Shown: positions 1,786 to 19,766 of the stretch, piece after piece
Position numbering within the stretch: position 1 is the first letter of the stretch
How the letters are laid out: the number at the start of each line of letters is the position of its first letter
IMG/VR virus record: IMGVR_UViG_3300042374_000342
Span: 1-21,531 of that record
Direction: 5' to 3' (one strand)
DNA from: a virus
DNA length: 21,531 nt
Notes under the pieces: generated by a model
Database searches by the model: none
Seen by the model: only the letters and a program-made list of their open reading frames with translations
What the model was told of the DNA's origin: nothing
Translations under genes and position numbers: made by a program

Positions 1786-2217
1786 TTATTTAGATTGTCC
1801 TTCCATAACTTCTTTATTTCCTTGTCCGAAATCAATTACTTCAAAAACTCTTGTCTGAATTTTCTTAGTACCTTCGGCATTTGTTAATATTATTGAATTC
1901 TTAAACTTTTGCCAATTGATGACAAAAGATGTATCCAACACCCCACCATTTTCCTCTTTAACTAATTCGTTAAGAGCATTAATAGTATAAAGTGAATTGG
2001 ATTCTTTCTTTCTATGTATTAATATTGTATTTTCCAACGGAGTATCCGGTTGGAAAGCTGTATCTATGTTATATGTTACAAACAATTCCTCTAAATTGGC
2101 CTTGTTTTGTAATATGTATATATAATTGTAGACTATATGATAAGTCTCTCTAATTTGTTGTAGAGTGTTTTGTAACTCCTCTTTTGTTGTAAATGTACAA
2201 AGTAACTGTGTCTTCAT
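1786..2217 (-). CDS. Conserved-looking hypothetical protein, 143 aa
   Basis: I do not recognise a named domain. The protein is soluble, mixed alpha/beta and starts MKTQLLCTFTTKEELQNTLQQI. The pattern suggests a beta strand followed by a helix, and a central segment NSLYTINALNELV looks like a second alpha/beta unit. No signal peptide or membrane segment is seen. The ATG at 2217 is well supported by a Shine-Dalgarno sequence (AGAGGAAGG immediately upstream), unusually strong for this window. It leads a two-gene unit with the endolysin, so a role in lysis or late virion assembly is possible but unproven. Its start region is part of an inverted repeat that may control translation (see 2216-2271). 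Confidence 0.8.
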   Translation of the reverse strand: MKTQLLCTFTTKEELQNTLQQIRETYHIVYNYIYILQNKANLEELFVTYNIDTAFQPDTPLENTILIHRKKESNSLYTINALNELVKEENGGVLDTSFVINWQKFKNSIILTNAEGTKKIQTRVFEVIDFGQGNKEVMEGQSK

Positions 2218-2271
2218 CCTTCCTCTTATTTCTTTTATTGTCTATAAATATCAAAAACGAAAAGGAAGGAT
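2216..2271 (-). promoter_or_regulatory. Inverted repeat that can sequester the RBS of the 143-aa gene
   Basis: Arm 2263-2271 (ATCCTTCCT on the minus strand) is perfectly complementary over 9 bp to arm 2216-2224 (AGGAAGGAT), which holds the Shine-Dalgarno sequence and the first bases of the ATG. The 38-nt loop contains the late promoter element at 2243-2250. A transcript reading through from the upstream giant gene could fold and hide the start. One starting at about 2236 would lack the upstream arm. Confidence 0.55.
2243..2250 (-). promoter_or_regulatory. Candidate phage late promoter element TATTTATA
   Basis: An exact TATTTATA on the minus strand, 25 nt before the ATG at 2217. A start 6-7 nt downstream would give a leader of about 19 nt that carries the Shine-Dalgarno sequence but not the sequestering arm. 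No -35-like element is visible. Confidence 0.65.
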
Positions 2272-2280
2272 AAAAACGGA

Positions 2281-5200
2281 TTATTTTTTAGAATCAAAAC
2301 ATTTCTGCATTCCAGCTGACCAAGTTACAGTATTTGCGGTTGGTGCTGTTGGTCCTTGTTTTGGTCTATATACTTTTTGAGCAATTTCTTCTTTTTTACC
2401 ATCTTTATTTATTGCATATACATATACAACTTTACCAGTAACTCTTACGTTATCTTTATCATATGTGTATCTTTCTACAAAACTAAGTTCAAAACTATCT
2501 TCTAATTCTTTAGTATTACCAACACCCAAACACCCTTTAATTATTTTTGGTGTTACTGCAATACCTTCCATTGCTAATTGTGTGTTTCTTCTTAATATTT
2601 GAGTAAAATCTTTTTCATTTTGAGGTGTATCTATTTTATCCAAATGTAATAATCCCTTTGCATCATCGAATGCTAATAAATCACCCAGTTTTTTAGTTTT
2701 TCCAGTTGAGGATTTGCCTGTTAATTTATTAAGATTTTTGAAAGTATCGGTTTGAATACCTAATGATTTTTTTCTTAATTCACTCAATGCCAAATCAGTA
2801 TCCAATCCAGATGGTAATTTCTTTCCATCTTTTTTATATTTTGCTTTTTCAGAGTTTGCTGTTCTTTCAATTACTTTTCTGTCATCACCACTTAACATTC
2901 CCGCTTTACCAACACTACTCATTACTTTAAAATAATTACCATTTGATAATTTTGGTTTTTTAGCCAATAATTTATTAAATCTAACCAAATAATCTTCATC
3001 AGATTCCTTTGGGTTTCTAGGTAATATTCCTTCTCTAATAGCATTTGTTTTCTTTCCACTTTTAGCCTTGCCACTCAAAACATCATCTACACTTTTTTTG
3101 AAATTACCAAAATGTTTTTTTGTTTCTGCTGATTTAGCCGCCTCATCTCCAAGTTTATCTAAATCTTTTGGTTTTAATGTTAAGAAGTAAGTAGATTGTT
3201 GAATAGATATATCTTTCAAACCGGCCTCTATATCTTTAATAGCTTGCTTATCTTTTAATATTAACAATTTAGCTTTATTAGCTGTTTTTTCATCAATTTG
3301 CCCAGTTGATACCAAATTACCTAATCTTTCTTCTGATTTAGTATAATCATCTACTAATGTAGAATTTCCCTGAATATCTTTTAATGTTTTTTTATCAGAC
3401 CAACCATCGTATATTGCATTTCCTTTTTCATCCAAAGTTATTGTAGCCGTATCTGCTGCGTTTTCACCACCACCACTACTCTTAACCCACTCCAACATCA
3501 CATCTTTTGGCATTTCATATACAGAATCCGTTTCAGCATCGTATATGAATATTTTTTTAGCTTTAGATATTGTTTCTTCACATCTAGCCAAATCTTCCTT
3601 TGTACCACCAAATACTTGCTTAGTTCTTGTTTTACCAAAATTACCTTCCTCTGTTGCTCTATCAGCTCCCATTGTTGCTCTAGCTGCTTTTGATTTTGCA
3701 CTTCTAGCAACAACAACACAATTTCTATATATTTCTTTATTTTCAATATCGGATGGTATTGCTATTTTATTTTCACTACCAATTGCTACATCTTTTTGTT
3801 GTAATCCTAATTTTGTATTTTTGGTTCTTTCGTATAAAATTCTTGCTAATGTTTCTTCATCTAAATCATTATATTTTTCTAATATTTTGACTCCCTCATT
3901 TGACATATTTTCATTAAAGTTAGAACCAGCATTTCCAGGTGCTACCCAAGATGCTCCCTCAACATATCCATTATCAAGAGCTTGTTGTGATGTGGTTGAA
4001 CTTTGTAATAATTTACCATCACCTTTACCATATAAAGCTTTTGATACTTCCTTTTGCTTAGCTATTGATTGTGTACTATCAATTGGTTCTTTTTTTCCTT
4101 TTTTAGCAGGCGTTCCAGTTGCTGGTTTCATATCAGGCGTTGGTCTAAAATCACCAGCACCTAATTTTTTTGCTGTTGGAGTTTGTGATTTTGTGTTTGC
4201 ATCTTTTATTTTTTTGTGCGTACCTTTTTTAATTGCCGCATCTCTTGCTTCCTCTGAACCAAATACTGATGTCTTACCAGTATCTTTTTTTATTGCCGTA
4301 AATGTTTCTCCGTTGGCTTCTAATTTAATTTCAGAAATTATTTCTTTTATTAATGATTCTATTTTCATTTCTTTTTTTGATTTACCATCTTTTTCAATTT
4401 GGTCATGAAGTTCTACATAATCTCTTAAGAATCCTTCATCATCAGGAATCTTATCCATATTTTCTCTTAATTTATCTATGTTGTTATATAGTTCCATTGA
4501 GTTTGCCAATACATCCGCTGGTATTTCTTTATCACTACTTATATACTCTCCGATTGTTTTTACAAGATTAGTACTAAATTCTTCTAATTTTTTCTTATGA
4601 TTCATTTCAACTGCTCCAGCGTATAATGCAGCTTTACCAGTACCCAACACAACACCTTCAACTATTGTATGTGGAACTAATTCAATTGCAGTTGATGTCA
4701 TTAATTGGCCTGCCGTTGTATATGCATGTCCCATAGCCGCACTTAATCCATATGCACCAGCCGCAGTTATCATAATTGCTTTTCCAGTTCCAACCATTGC
4801 TTTAATTTGCTTTTTTTCTTTTTTATATGATTTATAAAACAATTCCTTTTGTTTATCTGTCATATCTTCCTTTGGAATAGGTCTATCTTCATTCATCAAA
4901 TTACCAGTCAACCAATGTCTTTTTTGCATTGGCTTACCAGTCTCAGGATCATTTATTATGTGCCCATGACTATCAGTTTCGTATTGTGGAATTTTTTCAT
5001 ATCTTTTTTTACCATTCTCATCCACAGCTATATGGTCATCGTGGTTAAATCTTTCTCCAGTTTCTGGGTCCTCTATCGTTCCCAAACCACCATAAGCTCC
5101 AGCTTCAAAAATAGCAACTCCGGCATCTTTGAACATAACCGCATGGTGTACGATACCATCCTTAACGGCTTTTGGTATTCCTTTTATTTTATCTACTAAA

Positions 5201-8200
5201 GCTTTTCCAAAACTTCTTCTTGGTACTGAACCAGGTTTATGACCACCTCTACCAAAAAACTGCTTTCCAGCTTCTTTCATCACTTTAAACTTTTGTTGAA
5301 TTCTTTCTTTTTGTTTTTGAAACCAATTTTTCTTTTCTTCTGGGTCTTCTGGTTGTGGTTCTGGTAAAGATGTTACATTTTGTATATCTGATTCTTGATT
5401 GGCATCTGCTTTTTTAGCTGCAACTCCTTGCTGTTCGGCGAAATCATTACACATTGGTATGGCTTCTTTAATATCCATATCAATAGCCTGAACTTTCATT
5501 GGAATTTGATTATCAGGATTTTTTGCATTATATGCCGTTATAGCTGCCCATCTATGATGACCATCGATTACATATCCATCTCTACTTACATAAATTGGTG
5601 CAGTTATGCTTGGATGATTTGGGTCATTTTCCAATGCGTTCATCATACCAATAACTTTATCACCAACTAATTCGGATTGAGTTGCTTTTAATTTATCAGA
5701 AGGAACTTCGGTTTGAACAACTTTAATTCCTTTATCTTCTAACATTTTTTTAAATAATGGTTCGGTATCAACTTCTCCATTTTTATCAACTTCCATATCA
5801 GCCGCAGGTGTACCAGGTTGTGGTTTACCTTTGAATTGTGGCATTTCTGCTCTTGGTATTCCTAAGTTATCATCACAATATAAGTTGGTACCTGGCACAG
5901 TCACATCACATAAGTTAATGTTTGGTGCTTTTTCACCCCTTTCTTTTGCATCGGATATTTCTTTAGCAACCTTATCAATATCAGTATTAAATTGTTCTAA
6001 ATCTTTAGGTTCTATACCAGTTGGAATATCAGGTTCAGAACCAAACGTATCAGTATTTGCTTTTGGCATTTCCTTTTGAACATCATCTGCATTTATTGGA
6101 TTAAAATCTCCAGCCTTTGGTTCAGCTTTTGGTTGCTCCGCAGGTTTTTCAGTTGATGTTGAAGTTGGTTGTGTAGGTTCTTCTTTTGAAGATGCTGCAG
6201 CTGCTTTAGCTCTTTGAGTTGCTTTCTTAACTGCTCTTGGAGGAAGTTCTTGCACCGTTATCTTTTCACCATTTTGTAAAGTACCTGTAATTGATTTTTC
6301 GAATAGTGCAAATACATCTTCGTTTAAAGAATCATCAAATGCCATTTCAATCACCGATTCGGTTCTTACATATTTTGCAGGTCCATTTGGTTTATCAGAA
6401 TAATACCCACCACCAACAGAATATAATGAATTACCACTATCTGTCTTAGCTTCTTTGCCAGGCTTCTCTTTCTTTATATCATCTTTAGTTGCCTTTGGAG
6501 TTTCTTCCGGCTTAGTTGGTTCTGTTGTTGGTTTATCCTCAGGCTTAGTATCGGATGATTTTCTCGTCATTTTATCCACCAAATCAACATGACTCTCACC
6601 TGCAATAGTAATAGGTATTTTACCTTGCGCCGTTAATTCTTTATTTTTTTCAATTAAATGTTCATCTCTTGCATCATTAAATGCAACTTGAATATCATTT
6701 ATTTTTGTTGGTTTATCACCATTATCGTCTGGAAATGATAATCTATATAATGTCCCTCTATCACCCGTTCCTTTCCAACCATTTTCTTCACTTGGCTTTT
6801 CACCTGTTGGATTATCGAAATTTTCTATTGGAGGCAATCCTGCTTCTTTAGCTGCATCTTGTATAAATTGTTTACCTTCATCATCTAAATAGTCTTTACT
6901 TTTCATAGTATGCTCAGGATCATTTGGGTCTAAACCTTCACCCTCTCCCTGTCCAACCATACTTGCCCAATTACCTGCTAATATTTGATTATCTTTAAGG
7001 CCTGTTTTTTCTTTTTGTTTTTGGTATAATTTAGAATCGCTTTTATGTACATCCATATCATCACCATCCCATGTATCAACACCTGCACCCAATTCTTTAA
7101 ACTTTGGTGCAGCATAATCCATTTCATCATTAAAATCTATTTCACCGGTTTCATCGTTGGTTGCACCACCTTCACCTACAAATACAATATCTTTCCATCT
7201 TTCTTTTGGTATTTTGGATTTAACATCATCTAATATATCATCAACCATTGCTGTGTTTCCGTGCTTTGTTCCATATACGAATCCACCACCTTCCATTTCC
7301 ATTGTTTGGATTTCTTCACCAGATTTATTTCCCTTAAATTTTTGTGCTTTAGATTCAGGATCATCATTAGCAGGTTCTCTTTTTGCTGGTTCTGATGGTT
7401 GTTCCGTTGGAGTTTTCTTTTTAGCATCAAATTTTTGTTGGCTTTCCAAATCAGCTAGTTCTTGTTTTTTAGAAGCAAGTATTTCTTTATTCTTTGCCCA
7501 CTCAGCTTTCTTTTCAGGTGTTGCAAATTGTTCAGGATTATTTTGTTTCATCCTTTCCAATGCCTTCAATCTATTCTGAGCTTTTTGTATTTCAATTTTA
7601 GTATCTTCTATTTTTTCAACAGGAGGTACTTCTGTATCATTTGGAGAATTTGCATCAGGTACATCTTGGTCTGGAGTTGGTGTTGTATCAGGTCTAGCCG
7701 GTTCATCCATTGGTGGTTCTGCATTAGGTCCTGCTTCAGGTCCTGTTGGTTCTTCTGGTTTAGTATCATCAGCTTTTGGTGTCGTATCCGCTACTTTTGC
7801 TTTTGGATTATATGTTGGGTCATTATCTTGTCTAATACTATCCCACATTGCTGCGTTTTCCATATCACCTTTTCTTTTATTTTTTTCGGTCATATGTTTT
7901 GCCCAATCAGCTTTTGCAGCTTTAGCTTCAGATGAATCCTCACCCTTTTCTTTCATTACATCTGTGAATTTATTCCTAGTATCCAATTCTTTCGATTGAA
8001 CCTCATCATCACTCATTCCTTCAAAATCTTTATCGGGAGTATTATCAAAATCTTTATTTATATAATTGGTTAGCTTATCATCTTGTGCTTGTACGGAATC
8101 TTTTTCACTAGCAGATGCCTCTTTATCTTTTTGTGCCAATTTAGCACTAGCTTCTTTTTCTCTATCTAAGCGAGCTCCCATAGCAGGGTCTGCTTTTGGG

Positions 8201-8691
8201 TCAAACATTGCTGCTGCTTTCTTCTTCTTTTCATCTTCAGCATCAGCTCCACCACCCTTTTCATCTTCACCCTCTTTACCCTTCTCATCTTCAGGTGCTT
8301 TAGCTTTACCATCTTTCTCCGAACCTAGTTCCTGATTCATTGCATCTCTCTCAGGACTTCCTTCCGGTGGTAATGCCGCCTCAGCTGCCTTTCTACCTGG
8401 CGAATCTTCTGGTTGTCTTAATAAATTTCCAACAATACCTTCTTTGTCCTCACCTTTAGCATTTTTATATCTAACTTTTTTATTAAGTGCAGGATTACTA
8501 AACCCACCTTCTTCAGCTTCGTTGATACTTTTTAATAGTTCGGACTTAATATGCCCTAAACCCATTTCGTTTAATACAATTTCCAATTCCTTTACGTGTA
8601 TTGGATTTTTTGGGTTTGGCATCCCATCGTTTACTCGATATGCCCAATCGGATACTATTTCGTTTATTAATTCAGATAAATTCATATTCAT
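2281..8691 (-). CDS. Giant multidomain phage protein, 2136 aa (candidate injected or virion 'polyvalent' protein)
   Basis: Function is unknown. Visible parts in order: an alpha-helical N-terminal region (1-120, LSELINEIVSDWAYRVNDG); a long Lys/Glu/Pro/Thr-rich low-complexity region (about 120-465); a possible TraB/TIKI-like hydrolase domain (about 465-705) with GTKHGNT (His477), FVGEGG (Glu507) and GESHVD (Glu699, His701); another P/T-rich linker; a ParB/sulfiredoxin-like region with VIDGHHRWAA (Asp1043-Trp1048); a hydrophobic Gly/Ala-rich segment (about 1298-1360) that could contact a membrane; a module starting at Met1442 with SEEARDAAIKKGTHKK; and a mixed alpha/beta C-terminal third. No signal peptide. 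The ATG overlaps the stop of the upstream nuclease gene (TAATG), implying translational coupling; a second in-frame ATG lies 6 nt later. Size, linkers and modular enzymes fit proteins packaged in virions and injected, which is inference. Confidence 0.8.
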   Translation of the reverse strand: MNMNLSELINEIVSDWAYRVNDGMPNPKNPIHVKELEIVLNEMGLGHIKSELLKSINEAEEGGFSNPALNKKVRYKNAKGEDKEGIVGNLLRQPEDSPGRKAAEAALPPEGSPERDAMNQELGSEKDGKAKAPEDEKGKEGEDEKGGGADAEDEKKKKAAAMFDPKADPAMGARLDREKEASAKLAQKDKEASASEKDSVQAQDDKLTNYINKDFDNTPDKDFEGMSDDEVQSKELDTRNKFTDVMKEKGEDSSEAKAAKADWAKHMTEKNKRKGDMENAAMWDSIRQDNDPTYNPKAKVADTTPKADDTKPEEPTGPEAGPNAEPPMDEPARPDTTPTPDQDVPDANSPNDTEVPPVEKIEDTKIEIQKAQNRLKALERMKQNNPEQFATPEKKAEWAKNKEILASKKQELADLESQQKFDAKKKTPTEQPSEPAKREPANDDPESKAQKFKGNKSGEEIQTMEMEGGGFVYGTKHGNTAMVDDILDDVKSKIPKERWKDIVFVGEGGATNDETGEIDFNDEMDYAAPKFKELGAGVDTWDGDDMDVHKSDSKLYQKQKEKTGLKDNQILAGNWASMVGQGEGEGLDPNDPEHTMKSKDYLDDEGKQFIQDAAKEAGLPPIENFDNPTGEKPSEENGWKGTGDRGTLYRLSFPDDNGDKPTKINDIQVAFNDARDEHLIEKNKELTAQGKIPITIAGESHVDLVDKMTRKSSDTKPEDKPTTEPTKPEETPKATKDDIKKEKPGKEAKTDSGNSLYSVGGGYYSDKPNGPAKYVRTESVIEMAFDDSLNEDVFALFEKSITGTLQNGEKITVQELPPRAVKKATQRAKAAAASSKEEPTQPTSTSTEKPAEQPKAEPKAGDFNPINADDVQKEMPKANTDTFGSEPDIPTGIEPKDLEQFNTDIDKVAKEISDAKERGEKAPNINLCDVTVPGTNLYCDDNLGIPRAEMPQFKGKPQPGTPAADMEVDKNGEVDTEPLFKKMLEDKGIKVVQTEVPSDKLKATQSELVGDKVIGMMNALENDPNHPSITAPIYVSRDGYVIDGHHRWAAITAYNAKNPDNQIPMKVQAIDMDIKEAIPMCNDFAEQQGVAAKKADANQESDIQNVTSLPEPQPEDPEEKKNWFQKQKERIQQKFKVMKEAGKQFFGRGGHKPGSVPRRSFGKALVDKIKGIPKAVKDGIVHHAVMFKDAGVAIFEAGAYGGLGTIEDPETGERFNHDDHIAVDENGKKRYEKIPQYETDSHGHIINDPETGKPMQKRHWLTGNLMNEDRPIPKEDMTDKQKELFYKSYKKEKKQIKAMVGTGKAIMITAAGAYGLSAAMGHAYTTAGQLMTSTAIELVPHTIVEGVVLGTGKAALYAGAVEMNHKKKLEEFSTNLVKTIGEYISSDKEIPADVLANSMELYNNIDKLRENMDKIPDDEGFLRDYVELHDQIEKDGKSKKEMKIESLIKEIISEIKLEANGETFTAIKKDTGKTSVFGSEEARDAAIKKGTHKKIKDANTKSQTPTAKKLGAGDFRPTPDMKPATGTPAKKGKKEPIDSTQSIAKQKEVSKALYGKGDGKLLQSSTTSQQALDNGYVEGASWVAPGNAGSNFNENMSNEGVKILEKYNDLDEETLARILYERTKNTKLGLQQKDVAIGSENKIAIPSDIENKEIYRNCVVVARSAKSKAARATMGADRATEEGNFGKTRTKQVFGGTKEDLARCEETISKAKKIFIYDAETDSVYEMPKDVMLEWVKSSGGGENAADTATITLDEKGNAIYDGWSDKKTLKDIQGNSTLVDDYTKSEERLGNLVSTGQIDEKTANKAKLLILKDKQAIKDIEAGLKDISIQQSTYFLTLKPKDLDKLGDEAAKSAETKKHFGNFKKSVDDVLSGKAKSGKKTNAIREGILPRNPKESDEDYLVRFNKLLAKKPKLSNGNYFKVMSSVGKAGMLSGDDRKVIERTANSEKAKYKKDGKKLPSGLDTDLALSELRKKSLGIQTDTFKNLNKLTGKSSTGKTKKLGDLLAFDDAKGLLHLDKIDTPQNEKDFTQILRRNTQLAMEGIAVTPKIIKGCLGVGNTKELEDSFELSFVERYTYDKDNVRVTGKVVYVYAINKDGKKEEIAQKVYRPKQGPTAPTANTVTWSAGMQKCFDSKK

Positions 8692-9293
8692 TAAAATTTG
8701 TGGTCTTCTTTTTCACATATCATTTCTAACTCATCCCAATGAAATTTAGGTTTTTGATTTAGAAATACAAAACATTTCCATTTTTTACTTTTTTCAAAAT
8801 AAATGTGTTTTTGTAAGTGCGATGGAATTGCTGCTCCAGTTGGTACTCTTTTTACAGGCGTATCAAAGAATGTTTTTATTAGTACAGTTATATTTTCAGT
8901 ATCATCCCATTTACGAATTTGTTCTTCTAACAATCTCCATTCACCTCTATTAAGGTATTGGTCTTGCATTATACAATTTAAGTAAGAAAATGTTTGTTTT
9001 AGATTCTCCATATTATCAGAAAATGTTGCAGCTGGTGCACCATGTCCTTTATCGTATATGTTTTTAGCGTAATCATCCGCATCTGATGTTTTAATATTTG
9101 GTTCTTTATAAAAATCCATAGCCCCTCTATTTACATTTGTAGGACGGTTTGTTGAACGATACTTAATTACTAAGGGTTGTTCTAATGATTGTGAGTATAA
9201 AACCTCAAACACATCGTTTTTAATTCTTACATTCTGTCCAAAAGAAACCAAAGAAAGGATTATAAAACTAAAAAGGATACCAATTTTCTTCAT
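8691..9293 (-). CDS. Secreted DNA/RNA non-specific endonuclease (Serratia nuclease/NUC family)
   Basis: This is a sugar-non-specific nuclease that would cut DNA and RNA using a bound Mg ion. An N-terminal signal peptide is clear: KK, a hydrophobic core (4-16), then SFG-Gln20, the style seen in Bacteroidota exported proteins. The active-site motif reads YDKGHGAPAATF with the general-base His84, and LNRGEWRLLE supplies Asn115 and Glu123. Their spacing closely matches His89, Asn119 and Glu127 of Serratia nuclease. The usual DRGH is DKGH here. At 200 residues it is compact for the family. A late-type promoter element lies 25 nt before the ATG, and the stop overlaps the start of the giant gene. 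Export out of the cytoplasm suggests scavenging, clearing of DNA at lysis or attack on extracellular DNA rather than host chromosome breakdown, which is inference. Confidence 0.88.
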   Translation of the reverse strand: MKKIGILFSFIILSLVSFGQNVRIKNDVFEVLYSQSLEQPLVIKYRSTNRPTNVNRGAMDFYKEPNIKTSDADDYAKNIYDKGHGAPAATFSDNMENLKQTFSYLNCIMQDQYLNRGEWRLLEEQIRKWDDTENITVLIKTFFDTPVKRVPTGAAIPSHLQKHIYFEKSKKWKCFVFLNQKPKFHWDELEMICEKEDHKF

Positions 9294-9317
9294 ATTATAG
9301 CATATTTTTGTATATAC

Positions 9318-9325
9318 TATAAATA
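9318..9325 (-). promoter_or_regulatory. Candidate phage late promoter element TATTTATA
   Basis: An exact TATTTATA on the minus strand, 24 nt before the ATG of the nuclease gene and 7 nt beyond the stop of the polymerase gene. It would drive the nuclease-giant protein pair separately from the polymerase. Confidence 0.65.
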
Positions 9326-9332
9326 TGGGTTC

Positions 9333-10619
9333 TTATAGTTTTCCGTAATCCAAACCCCAACTAGCCTTAACAGGAAACCCACTCCCTTCAATGATTTCCT
9401 TCAATCCCCTAATTAATTGCTTATCCACATCAGTAGGAACATCAAAAAGGAACGAGTCATATGTGTATAAACAAAAGTTAATACCACTTCCCTTTATATA
9501 ATCCAATATTTTTCTCATAACCTCAATGTTCATTTCAGTCTCAACGGCTTGTAATAAGTAGTTGAATACCTTTTGTGCATTTGGTTGTTCTATCCACTCT
9601 AACGGAATCTCTCTATGTGGTGTTTGTAGGAATCCTTTCTTTTGTACATCAATCCATAAGTTATCAATGTAATCAGCTACGGCATTAAAATATGGAATTG
9701 TACGGAAATCATCATCGATACCACCATAAAGTAATTGGAACGTAATACCTTTTGATTCATCCACACTACATCCATATTGTTCGGCTAACCACTCATGCAC
9801 ACTGGTTGTTGGGAGTTCGAAGTTCACCAACTTACCAATCAAACGGGGGTGATATGCGTTATAATCCATTTGTAGGAATATCCCATCCGATACGAAACAT
9901 TCTCTACTACCATCCGTTTTGTTTAGGGCGGCATAGTTCACACCACCATGTCTATTTGATGGTCTACCTGTCACCGTAAATGGATTGTATTCGGTGTACA
10001 CTAAGTTATCGGATGAAAGCTGTTTGGAAGCTTGAGGCCATCTATCAATAAATTTTTTCCCATCGACACGGATTCCAAATTGTTCGATATCTGAAAGGGT
10101 AGGTATAAACACTTCATTGTACCATTTAAGTGTAGGAGTATAATGTTCTTTATGGAAGTACTTACCGAATTGTGGTTGTATTGCTTCTACAATCTTCATT
10201 AGAGGAAGGGATTGTATCAAGTCATCTCTATACCCTTTGTGAGTTAGAGTTGAAAGGAGGGGATTTAAAGGGGCTTCATAATCAATTACCTTTGCTTCCT
10301 TTCTAAAATATGCCGAATCTACATCATATAAATTTACCGAAACATTAAGAGTATGTAATATCTTCTTTTTTTGAAATATCCACTTTTGTCCGTTGGTATT
10401 GAGTACCGTCTCTATTTGCTCAATAGATAGCGATAGAGCGTCTGTATGTTTATGTGGTAGAATGTACAATCCATCAGAACATCGTACAACTACGAGCGAA
10501 AGAGAAGTGTTTAACGGATGCTTACTATTATCTACCCACAATGGATACCAAATAGATGCTTCCGTTTCCAGCTTTTCTTTTAGTTGATTAACTTCTTCAA
10601 TAGACTCAATAATCTTCAT
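9333..10619 (-). CDS. Short divergent family-A DNA polymerase
   Basis: The C-terminal half carries the three palm/fingers motifs of family-A polymerases. Motif A is DYNAYHPRLIG (Asp252), motif B is KGITFQLLYGG (Lys290, Phe294, Tyr298, Gly299), and motif C is YDSFLF with Asp388 in place of the usual HDE. The segment TGRPSNRHGGVNYAAL before motif A resembles the TGRLSS...NLQNIP region. Both metal-binding Asp residues are present. The first 200 residues show no clear 3'-5' exonuclease motifs. With 428 residues and only 136 residues between motifs A and C, it is much shorter than E. coli Pol I. I place the start at the ATG at 10619 (MKIIESIEEVN), because the longer frame opens inside the tmRNA terminator, upstream of the promoter. 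It has its own host-type promoter. It may replicate, repair or be a specialised polymerase. Confidence 0.83.
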   Translation of the reverse strand: MKIIESIEEVNQLKEKLETEASIWYPLWVDNSKHPLNTSLSLVVVRCSDGLYILPHKHTDALSLSIEQIETVLNTNGQKWIFQKKKILHTLNVSVNLYDVDSAYFRKEAKVIDYEAPLNPLLSTLTHKGYRDDLIQSLPLMKIVEAIQPQFGKYFHKEHYTPTLKWYNEVFIPTLSDIEQFGIRVDGKKFIDRWPQASKQLSSDNLVYTEYNPFTVTGRPSNRHGGVNYAALNKTDGSRECFVSDGIFLQMDYNAYHPRLIGKLVNFELPTTSVHEWLAEQYGCSVDESKGITFQLLYGGIDDDFRTIPYFNAVADYIDNLWIDVQKKGFLQTPHREIPLEWIEQPNAQKVFNYLLQAVETEMNIEVMRKILDYIKGSGINFCLYTYDSFLFDVPTDVDKQLIRGLKEIIEGSGFPVKASWGLDYGKL

Positions 10620-10624
10620 AAGTA

Positions 10625-10656
10625 CAAAGATACAAAAAAAATCCCAAACTACCAAA
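10625..10656 (-). promoter_or_regulatory. Bacteroidota-type promoter of the DNA polymerase gene
   Basis: On the minus strand TTTG (10653-10656), a 20-nt spacer and TATCTTTG (10625-10632) match the Bacteroidota housekeeping consensus TTTG/TAnnTTTG. Only 5 nt separate it from the ATG at 10619, so the mRNA would be nearly leaderless. The -33 element lies in the loop of the tmRNA terminator. Confidence 0.7.
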
Positions 10657-10671: not shown

Positions 10672-10674
10672 TAG

Positions 10675-11060
10675 TGGAGATGACGGGACTCGAACCCGTG
10701 TCTTACAAAGTAACCATAATACCAGCATGTCACACGTTTAGGATAAAGTTTAATCTTATTCACTTTCCAAAATAATTGGGGCCGTATGGTTAATACAGCG
10801 ATTCCACCATCCTATCAGTATTAAACAGCCGATAGGTAGAGCTGCGGTTGTTCACTTCTATTTAAATCCCACGAGTGATGCGGGAGGTGATTAGGCTGCT
10901 ACAGCGTAATCGTAAGCTCCTACAAATGCCATAGCATCTTCGAAGTTCCAAGTAGATAATTCTACGTCGGTTATTGTTTTGTACAGATTTAAAGACATCT
11001 AGCACTTCTGTCTACGTGTGATACTATGTTTCTCATTGCAATCAATTCCGTAACATCCCC
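10675..11060 (-). ncRNA. ssrA: Transfer-messenger RNA (tmRNA), one-piece
   Basis: tmRNA is charged with alanine and rescues stalled ribosomes by trans-translation, adding a degradation tag. The 5' end GGGGATG (11060-11054) pairs over 7 bp with CATCTCC (10676-10682), including the G3-U70 wobble that alanyl-tRNA synthetase reads. The T arm ACGGG-TTCGAGT-CCCGT is perfect, and the discriminator is A (10675). The 3' CCA is not encoded. A P2 helix joins 11014-11021 and 10730-10737 (8 bp, perfect). The tag frame lies in the expected place, followed by GC-rich pseudoknot-like segments. Length is about 386 nt, normal for the class. It lies between tail genes and the polymerase and has both a late-type and a host-type promoter element just upstream. 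It is not split and shows no sign of being an integration-site remnant. Confidence 0.95.
10891..10920 (-). other. tmRNA tag reading frame, predicted tag (A)GAYDYAVAA
   Basis: Ten codons from GGA (10918-10920) to TAA (10891-10893) read GAYDYAVAA, which aligns residue for residue with Bacteroidota-type tags such as GENNYALAA. The frame stays open further upstream, so the resume codon GGA is assigned by this alignment only. The end is VAA instead of the usual LAA. Confidence 0.8.
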
Positions 11061-19485: not shown

Positions 19486-19698
19486 TTATGAATACTTTTT
19501 AATGAGTTGTGAAAGTCTTTGTCTTTCATTCTCAATTCTTTCCATACTATCAATTACATCAGGCGGAAATTTGTTTTGTTTCGCTTGTTCTAATGCTCTA
19601 TTAACGGCGTTTGTTTTTAATCCATCAAAAAATGCATCAGTAAATTTTTTAGCTGCACCAAATAGTCCTTCTTCTACGGGTTGTTTTTCTTTAGACAT
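19486..19698 (-). CDS. Small hypothetical protein, first gene of the tape-measure operon, 70 aa
   Basis: I do not recognise this protein. It is short, charged and predicted to be mostly helical: an N-terminal polar stretch MSKEKQPVEEG, a helix LFGAAKKFTDAFFDGLKTNAVNRALEQAKQ, and a second helix PDVIDSMERIENERQRLSQLIKKY. No membrane segment is present. A good Shine-Dalgarno-like AAAAGGA lies about 8 nt before the ATG, and a late promoter element lies further upstream, so it opens the operon. Position between the gp26/gp51-like genes and the tape measure suggests a tape-measure chaperone or a small baseplate hub component, which is inference from context only. Confidence 0.75.
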   Translation of the reverse strand: MSKEKQPVEEGLFGAAKKFTDAFFDGLKTNAVNRALEQAKQNKFPPDVIDSMERIENERQRLSQLIKKYS

Positions 19699-19718
19699 AG
19701 TTTTATCCTTTTATATTG

Positions 19719-19726
19719 TATAAATA
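19719..19726 (-). promoter_or_regulatory. Candidate phage late promoter element TATTTATA of the tape-measure operon
   Basis: An exact TATTTATA on the minus strand, 20 nt before the ATG at 19698. A start 6-7 nt downstream leaves a short leader with AAAAGGA. It follows directly after the gp51-like terminator, and the combined terminator-tail/promoter (19720-19741) recurs at 889-910. Confidence 0.7.
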
Positions 19727-19734
19727 TTGGATAA

Positions 19735-19766
19735 TAAAAAAGTGAGGATTAACGCATCCTCACTTT
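19735..19766 (-). terminator. Intrinsic terminator built into the end of the gp51-like gene
   Basis: On the minus strand an 11-bp perfect stem (19756-19766 with 19739-19749) closes a 6-nt loop and runs into T-rich sequence. The 5' arm encodes the last sense codons and the stop codon lies at the loop and second arm. Confidence 0.93.

Follow-up and report, generated by a model that had tools for sequence, protein, structure and literature searches.

In a stretch of viral DNA of 21,531 nt (hereafter the window), the start region of a conserved 143-aa gene just ahead of the endolysin gene lies in one arm of a predicted hairpin whose other arm stands upstream of a putative late promoter. We propose, with a probability of about three in four, that this arrangement works as a promoter-nested translational delay switch of the T4 e/soc/49/I-TevI type in phages of probable Bacteroidota hosts. 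In those T4 genes the starts are hidden on long transcripts and exposed on late ones, and the effect for gene e is about 100-fold (PMC3014915). A T4 gene-e-like switch was the reading offered in a preliminary description of the window, and it is supported by the folding of both transcript forms, by pairing kept among relatives, by the absence of the structure where the nested layout is absent, and by an upstream promoter with no terminator between it and the gene.

In the proposed scheme, upstream transcripts, most likely from the DNA polymerase promoter 8 kb away, would carry both arms and fold into a 24-bp hairpin that hides the start region, and the 143-aa gene would be poorly translated, as probably would the endolysin through coupling. 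Late activation of TATTTATA would then yield new RNA from about 2238–2234, a start position placed by T4 spacing, which would have no 5′ arm and be freely translated. We infer the start site, the early activity of the upstream promoter, the strength of repression and the coupling to the endolysin. Since part of the read-through would itself be late, both dosage and timing may be under the control of the switch.

The predicted start-hiding helix and the probable late promoter element

The features concerned, all on the minus strand, are as follows.

941–1777, minus: endolysin gene (phrog_181, E 5.5e-76), starting 8 nt after the stop of the 143-aa gene and with no promoter of its own
1786–2217, minus: 143-aa gene, a conserved phage protein with homologues in IMG/VR (model pLDDT 89)
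2210–2233, minus: 3′ arm of the predicted hairpin (fold and accessibility), holding a purine tract, the AUG (2217–2215) and codons 2–3 of the 143-aa gene
2243–2250, minus: putative late promoter element TATTTATA, invariant in the leader alignment; the same word stands before Immutovirus late genes
2253–2277, minus: pyrimidine-rich 5′ arm (MFE and centroid fold, pairing conserved in leaders), present only in read-through RNA
2281–8691, minus: 2136-aa gene (open reading frame), traversed by the putative read-through RNA; no intrinsic terminator lies between the DNA polymerase and 143-aa genes
9333–10619, minus: DNA polymerase gene, family A-like (phrog_17, E 1.4e-13; synteny in 55 loci), first gene of the presumed early transcript
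10625–10656, minus: putative vegetative, Bacteroidota-type promoter TTTG-N20-TATCTTTG of the DNA polymerase gene, conserved in 55/59 relatives

Read along the minus strand, the end of the 2136-aa gene (stop codon 2283–2281) is followed by the 5′ arm, TATTTATA and the 3′ arm, which holds the AUG for the 143-aa protein. The word ATCCTTCCT occurs exactly twice in the whole window, at 2216–2224 on the plus strand and at 2263–2271 on the minus strand, and the perfect 9-bp inverted repeat first described here (ATCCTTCCT/AGGAAGGAT) is thus present. Shuffling gives 0.38 expected occurrences per shuffle, with two or more in 4/100 shuffles, and against shuffled arms the pairing of the 9-mer by itself stands out only slightly (p about 0.02). 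Taken alone, the 9-mer is weak evidence, and the full structure goes well beyond it: the repeat serves as core to a longer helix of 24 bp (18 + 6 bp with one bulged base), in which 2277–2253 pair with 2233–2210 (UAUCCUUCC with GGAAGGAUG) and the AUG with codons 2–3 is enclosed.

The 96-nt long form folds at -27.7 kcal/mol with the start buried, as compared with -11.8 ± 2.75 for shuffles (z -5.8, 0/200), and both the MFE and the centroid structure place 2253–2277 in the 5′ arm. The short RNA with its 5′ end at 2237 folds at -1.5 kcal/mol, no better than shuffles, and its start is open, which is the outcome the switch reading anticipates for the two forms. In the long RNA the start region has a mean accessibility of 0.02, versus 0.70 in the short RNA; the pairing of this region is unchanged with upstream context of up to 600 nt, and the region is exposed for all transcription start sites tried. 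With the RNA up to 2268 removed, the stem still reaches -13.7 kcal/mol, and in this model a ribosome ending at the stop of the 2136-aa gene may briefly melt the stem base. The hairpin was also considered as a terminator and rejected, there being no U-run after the stem on either strand.

The preliminary description had the upstream arm pairing with the Shine–Dalgarno (SD) sequence and start of the 143-aa gene. Pairing with the start is borne out, and the ‘Shine–Dalgarno’ label is doubtful for ribosomes that mostly do without SD use. The source phages are lake phages that probably infect Bacteroidota, since the promoter type is that of this phylum and relatives infect Flavobacterium. Bacteroidota ribosomes largely ignore SD sequences (PMC6847099; PMC9976891), and in these bacteria start-region structure tunes initiation (PMC6847099). 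Hence the target of the hairpin is probably the whole of the start region.

The element between the arms, at 2250–2243 in the apical part of the hairpin, stands as a late promoter candidate where it had been placed, and what changes is its reading: in the sense direction it is TATTTATA, which corresponds to T4's TATAAATA in reverse complement and is the form found upstream of late genes in this phage group. The window contains 11 matches to TATTTATA versus 4.5 expected. Sense-strand TATTTAT lies 11–33 nt upstream of six window genes, and the reverse form ATAAATA lies upstream of no window gene; a plus-strand late promoter with TATAAATA reading rightwards was rejected on this count. In Flavobacterium phage immuto, a cultured relative (Immutovirus), the same word precedes the terminase, gp20-like, tail sheath, tail tube, baseplate hub and tape measure genes. 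Because of this placement and the sense-strand bias in the window, TATTTATA very probably serves as the late promoter in the group, with a word unlike T4's.

The gated gene is present in all relatives examined. Its product gives a confident alpha/beta model and has no PHROG or Pfam match and no informative family or fold match; structural matches cover a common alpha/beta arrangement of residues 1–69 only, at low Z. In an Immutovirus locus (L147:1346-1801), the homologue lies between the DNA polymerase and ssDNA-binding protein genes. This locus recalls T4 genes 33-59-32 and prompted the idea that the 143-aa protein might be a gp33, which no family or structure match supports and which is not claimed here. 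Known phage records contain no nucleotide match to the window, and the nearest proteins in known phages are 36–47% identical. The gap between the 143-aa stop and the endolysin is 7–8 nt in 89 related loci, and a late motif occurs there in three. As the endolysin starts so close behind and lacks a promoter, hairpin gating of the 143-aa gene may also gate the endolysin through coupling.

Probable sources of the long transcript

Read-through from the 2136-aa gene was the origin first suggested for the long RNA. Passage through that gene is plausible, there being no intrinsic terminator, and the putative host-type promoter of the DNA polymerase gene at 10656–10625 is the more telling source. The housekeeping sigma factor of Bacteroidota has the consensus TTTG/TAnnTTTG (PMC6847099), and TTTG-N20-TATCTTTG directly before the polymerase start agrees with it. 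In five related contigs this promoter class counts 19 versus 1 for the reversed control, always on one strand per contig. The polymerase and 143-aa genes lie on the same strand, 3.7–8.2 kb apart, in 55 loci, usually in the order polymerase, 200-aa gene, large gene, 143-aa gene, endolysin, and no intrinsic terminator was detected between polymerase and 143-aa gene in any of these loci. The terminator detector used here does report four elsewhere on this strand of the window, three just before other late-motif genes (19698, 20748 and 884) and one before the DNA polymerase gene. With a conserved same-strand promoter and no terminator between, vegetative-type transcripts could reach the 143-aa gene, and it is plausible that they do so like early RNA at T4 e.

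The 200-aa gene between polymerase and 143-aa gene has its own late motif, and part of the read-through would therefore be late too. This late RNA, meeting no terminator, is what gives weight to the strongest alternative, in which the same hairpin insulates the 143-aa gene and the endolysin from late read-through, leaving translation to RNA from the gene's own late promoter and controlling dose, not time. We regard it as unlikely, since the conserved vegetative-type polymerase promoter predicts read-through that is not late, which favours timing.

A tmRNA gene (window 10674–11060, minus strand) lies between baseplate-type genes and the DNA polymerase gene and is found in 16/17 related loci scanned. 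It has a promoter of its own, TTTG-N20-TATATTTG (11106), and a strong terminator (10672–10638) stands behind it. The tag called by ARAGORN, EQPQLYLSAV, is probably wrong; the frame DVELSTWNFEDAMAFVGAYDYAVAA, ending in a stop, resembles tags called in relatives.

Conservation of the pairing and natural controls

Scanning IMG/VR with the 143-aa protein gave 296 relatives, from which 80 loci were kept, and further loci came from endolysin and polymerase scans. Homologues at least 75% identical to the 143-aa protein supplied 61 distinct leaders. The promoter motif lies between the arms in 61/61, the stability advantage of the long form over the short form is at least 9.4 kcal/mol in 61/61, and in 60/61 at least 9 of the 17 start-region nucleotides (-14 to +3) pair with RNA 5′ of the motif.

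Arm sequences vary and the pairing register shifts among these leaders. In L043 the arms are UUUCAUCCG with CGGAUGAAA; L066 has UUCAUCGGUU with AACCGAUGAA, so that a C-G pair of L043 is replaced by G-C, and L338 pairs the quite different sequences UUUGUAAUU and AAUUACAAA. Some changes go uncompensated: in leaders where ACCC stands opposite GAAU, two inner pairs are lost and the rest are kept. Because clades pair in different registers, column-by-column covariation on a single alignment is unsuitable, and the analysis relied on swapping and shuffling in its place. Among nine representatives, 82/362,880 permutations of arms were as good as the own partners (p = 2e-4); among 19 start-region clusters 0/100,000 were as good; and for six broad groups p = 0.011. 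Own arms are thus predicted to pair better than swapped arms of other clades. Leader conservation partly reflects shared descent, and the stricter swap-test figures are the safer ones because the leaders are related. Covariation of the arms in related phages had been named as a check of the switch, and pairing is indeed kept where arms changed.

The pairing could also be a by-product, if the purine-rich leader is by chance complementary to a conserved pyrimidine tract upstream of the late promoter, itself a promoter or protein-binding element. A tract TAyCC..TT is partly conserved across clades, and composition does yield some pairing, since opening the start region of the 143-aa family costs 5.3 kcal/mol when the upstream sequence is shuffled. 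However, the actual cost is 15.9 kcal/mol, by far the largest among late-motif families, pairing exceeds that of composition-matched shuffles (family median z -4.0), arms as different as those of L338 and L066 still pair, and most other late-promoter genes in these loci have no such pairing, all of which makes coincidence quite improbable. Least probable of all is a stem serving RNA processing or stability (e.g. RNase III cleavage of read-through RNA) with start masking secondary: a nearly perfect 24-bp stem in read-through RNA would suit it, but the pairing covers the start region in 60/61 leaders whatever the register, which a cleavage site would not need.

Other genes and homologues serve as natural controls. 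The 261/309-aa family (n = 37) has the late motif and no excess opening cost (2.6 versus 2.8 kcal/mol with shuffled upstream sequence), and smaller excesses are seen in the 200-aa family (7.6 versus 3.4 kcal/mol, 27 relatives) and in a small membrane-protein family (9.4 versus 5.5 kcal/mol). For the 143-aa gene itself, opening costs 16.3 kcal/mol in the window clade versus 2.4 in Immutovirus-like homologues, where the motif lies directly at an extended start, and 4.1 in a second group, which lacks the motif and whose GGAG leader is an overlapping one. No such structure was found in either of these two groups, the homologues compared that lack the nested layout. The structure tracks the nested layout, not the protein. 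In loci L230–L307, homologues of the 143-aa gene stand in operons, with GTG starts that overlap the upstream GGAG.

Relation to known switches and further candidate sites

The window shares with T4 e, soc and 49 a predicted helix that hides the start in the long RNA, a late promoter placed to leave the late RNA without the 5′ strand, linkage to lysis, and conservation in related phages. Unlike those genes, it has no gene or leader homology to them, and its promoter word is TATTTATA where theirs is TATAAATA, the sense word of gp55-dependent T4 late promoters. Moreover, the gated gene encodes a 143-aa protein ahead of an endolysin, not a T4-type lysozyme as in gene e, and SD pairing is not the rule in the probable Bacteroidota host. 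The same plan is known for the hairpin-gated homing endonucleases I-TevI, I-TevII, I-TevIII, SegB and phage Aeh1 MobE (PMC2988022). As in those, a late gene appears to lie inside an earlier transcription unit, with a start-hiding hairpin and a late promoter that would trim the 5′ end; unlike those, no endonuclease or intron is involved and the hairpin would gate a conserved gene of the phage itself. Anatomy and evolutionary behaviour match the T4 switches, and from the sequences there is a good probability that the element works as they do, as a further case of the mechanism and not as a homologue.

A search of open papers found no description of a comparable switch for phages of Bacteroidota. 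Should the proposed delay switch be real, the logic of T4 lysozyme delay would be no T-even peculiarity, recurring in freshwater Bacteroidota phages with another gene and another promoter word; it would allow start-region occlusion to be tested cleanly in hosts whose ribosomes do not read SD sequences, and would open a way to study lysis timing in large phages that are uncultured. The analysis also gives a working promoter grammar for the phage group, vegetative-type TTTG/TATCTTTG and late TATTTATA. More tentatively, and somewhat less likely than not, phages of Bacteroidota, where ribosomes do without SD pairing, might have independently evolved a promoter-nested hairpin that delays a lysis-linked operon by blocking the start region, and might apply this principle to several genes, namely at the 200-aa gene, with the promoter in the 5′ arm, and at a membrane-protein gene near the endolysin.

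In the leader of the 200-aa gene (window 9250–9330, minus strand), a second start-hiding hairpin is predicted, with the late motif CATATTTATA itself as its 5′ arm, paired with the AATATG start region (TATAGTATAT with ATATGCTATA). GGTTAT/ATAACC flank a late motif just before the AUG of a membrane-protein gene near the endolysin in two relatives (L136:9050-9128 and L116:7060-7132), which may be another nested switch acting on a gene linked to lysis. In the leader of a 70-aa gene (window 19686–19763, minus strand), a late motif sits between TTATCC and GGATAA on the 3′ side of a terminator (19763–19742), with a weak excess in opening cost of 5.8 versus 4.6 kcal/mol.
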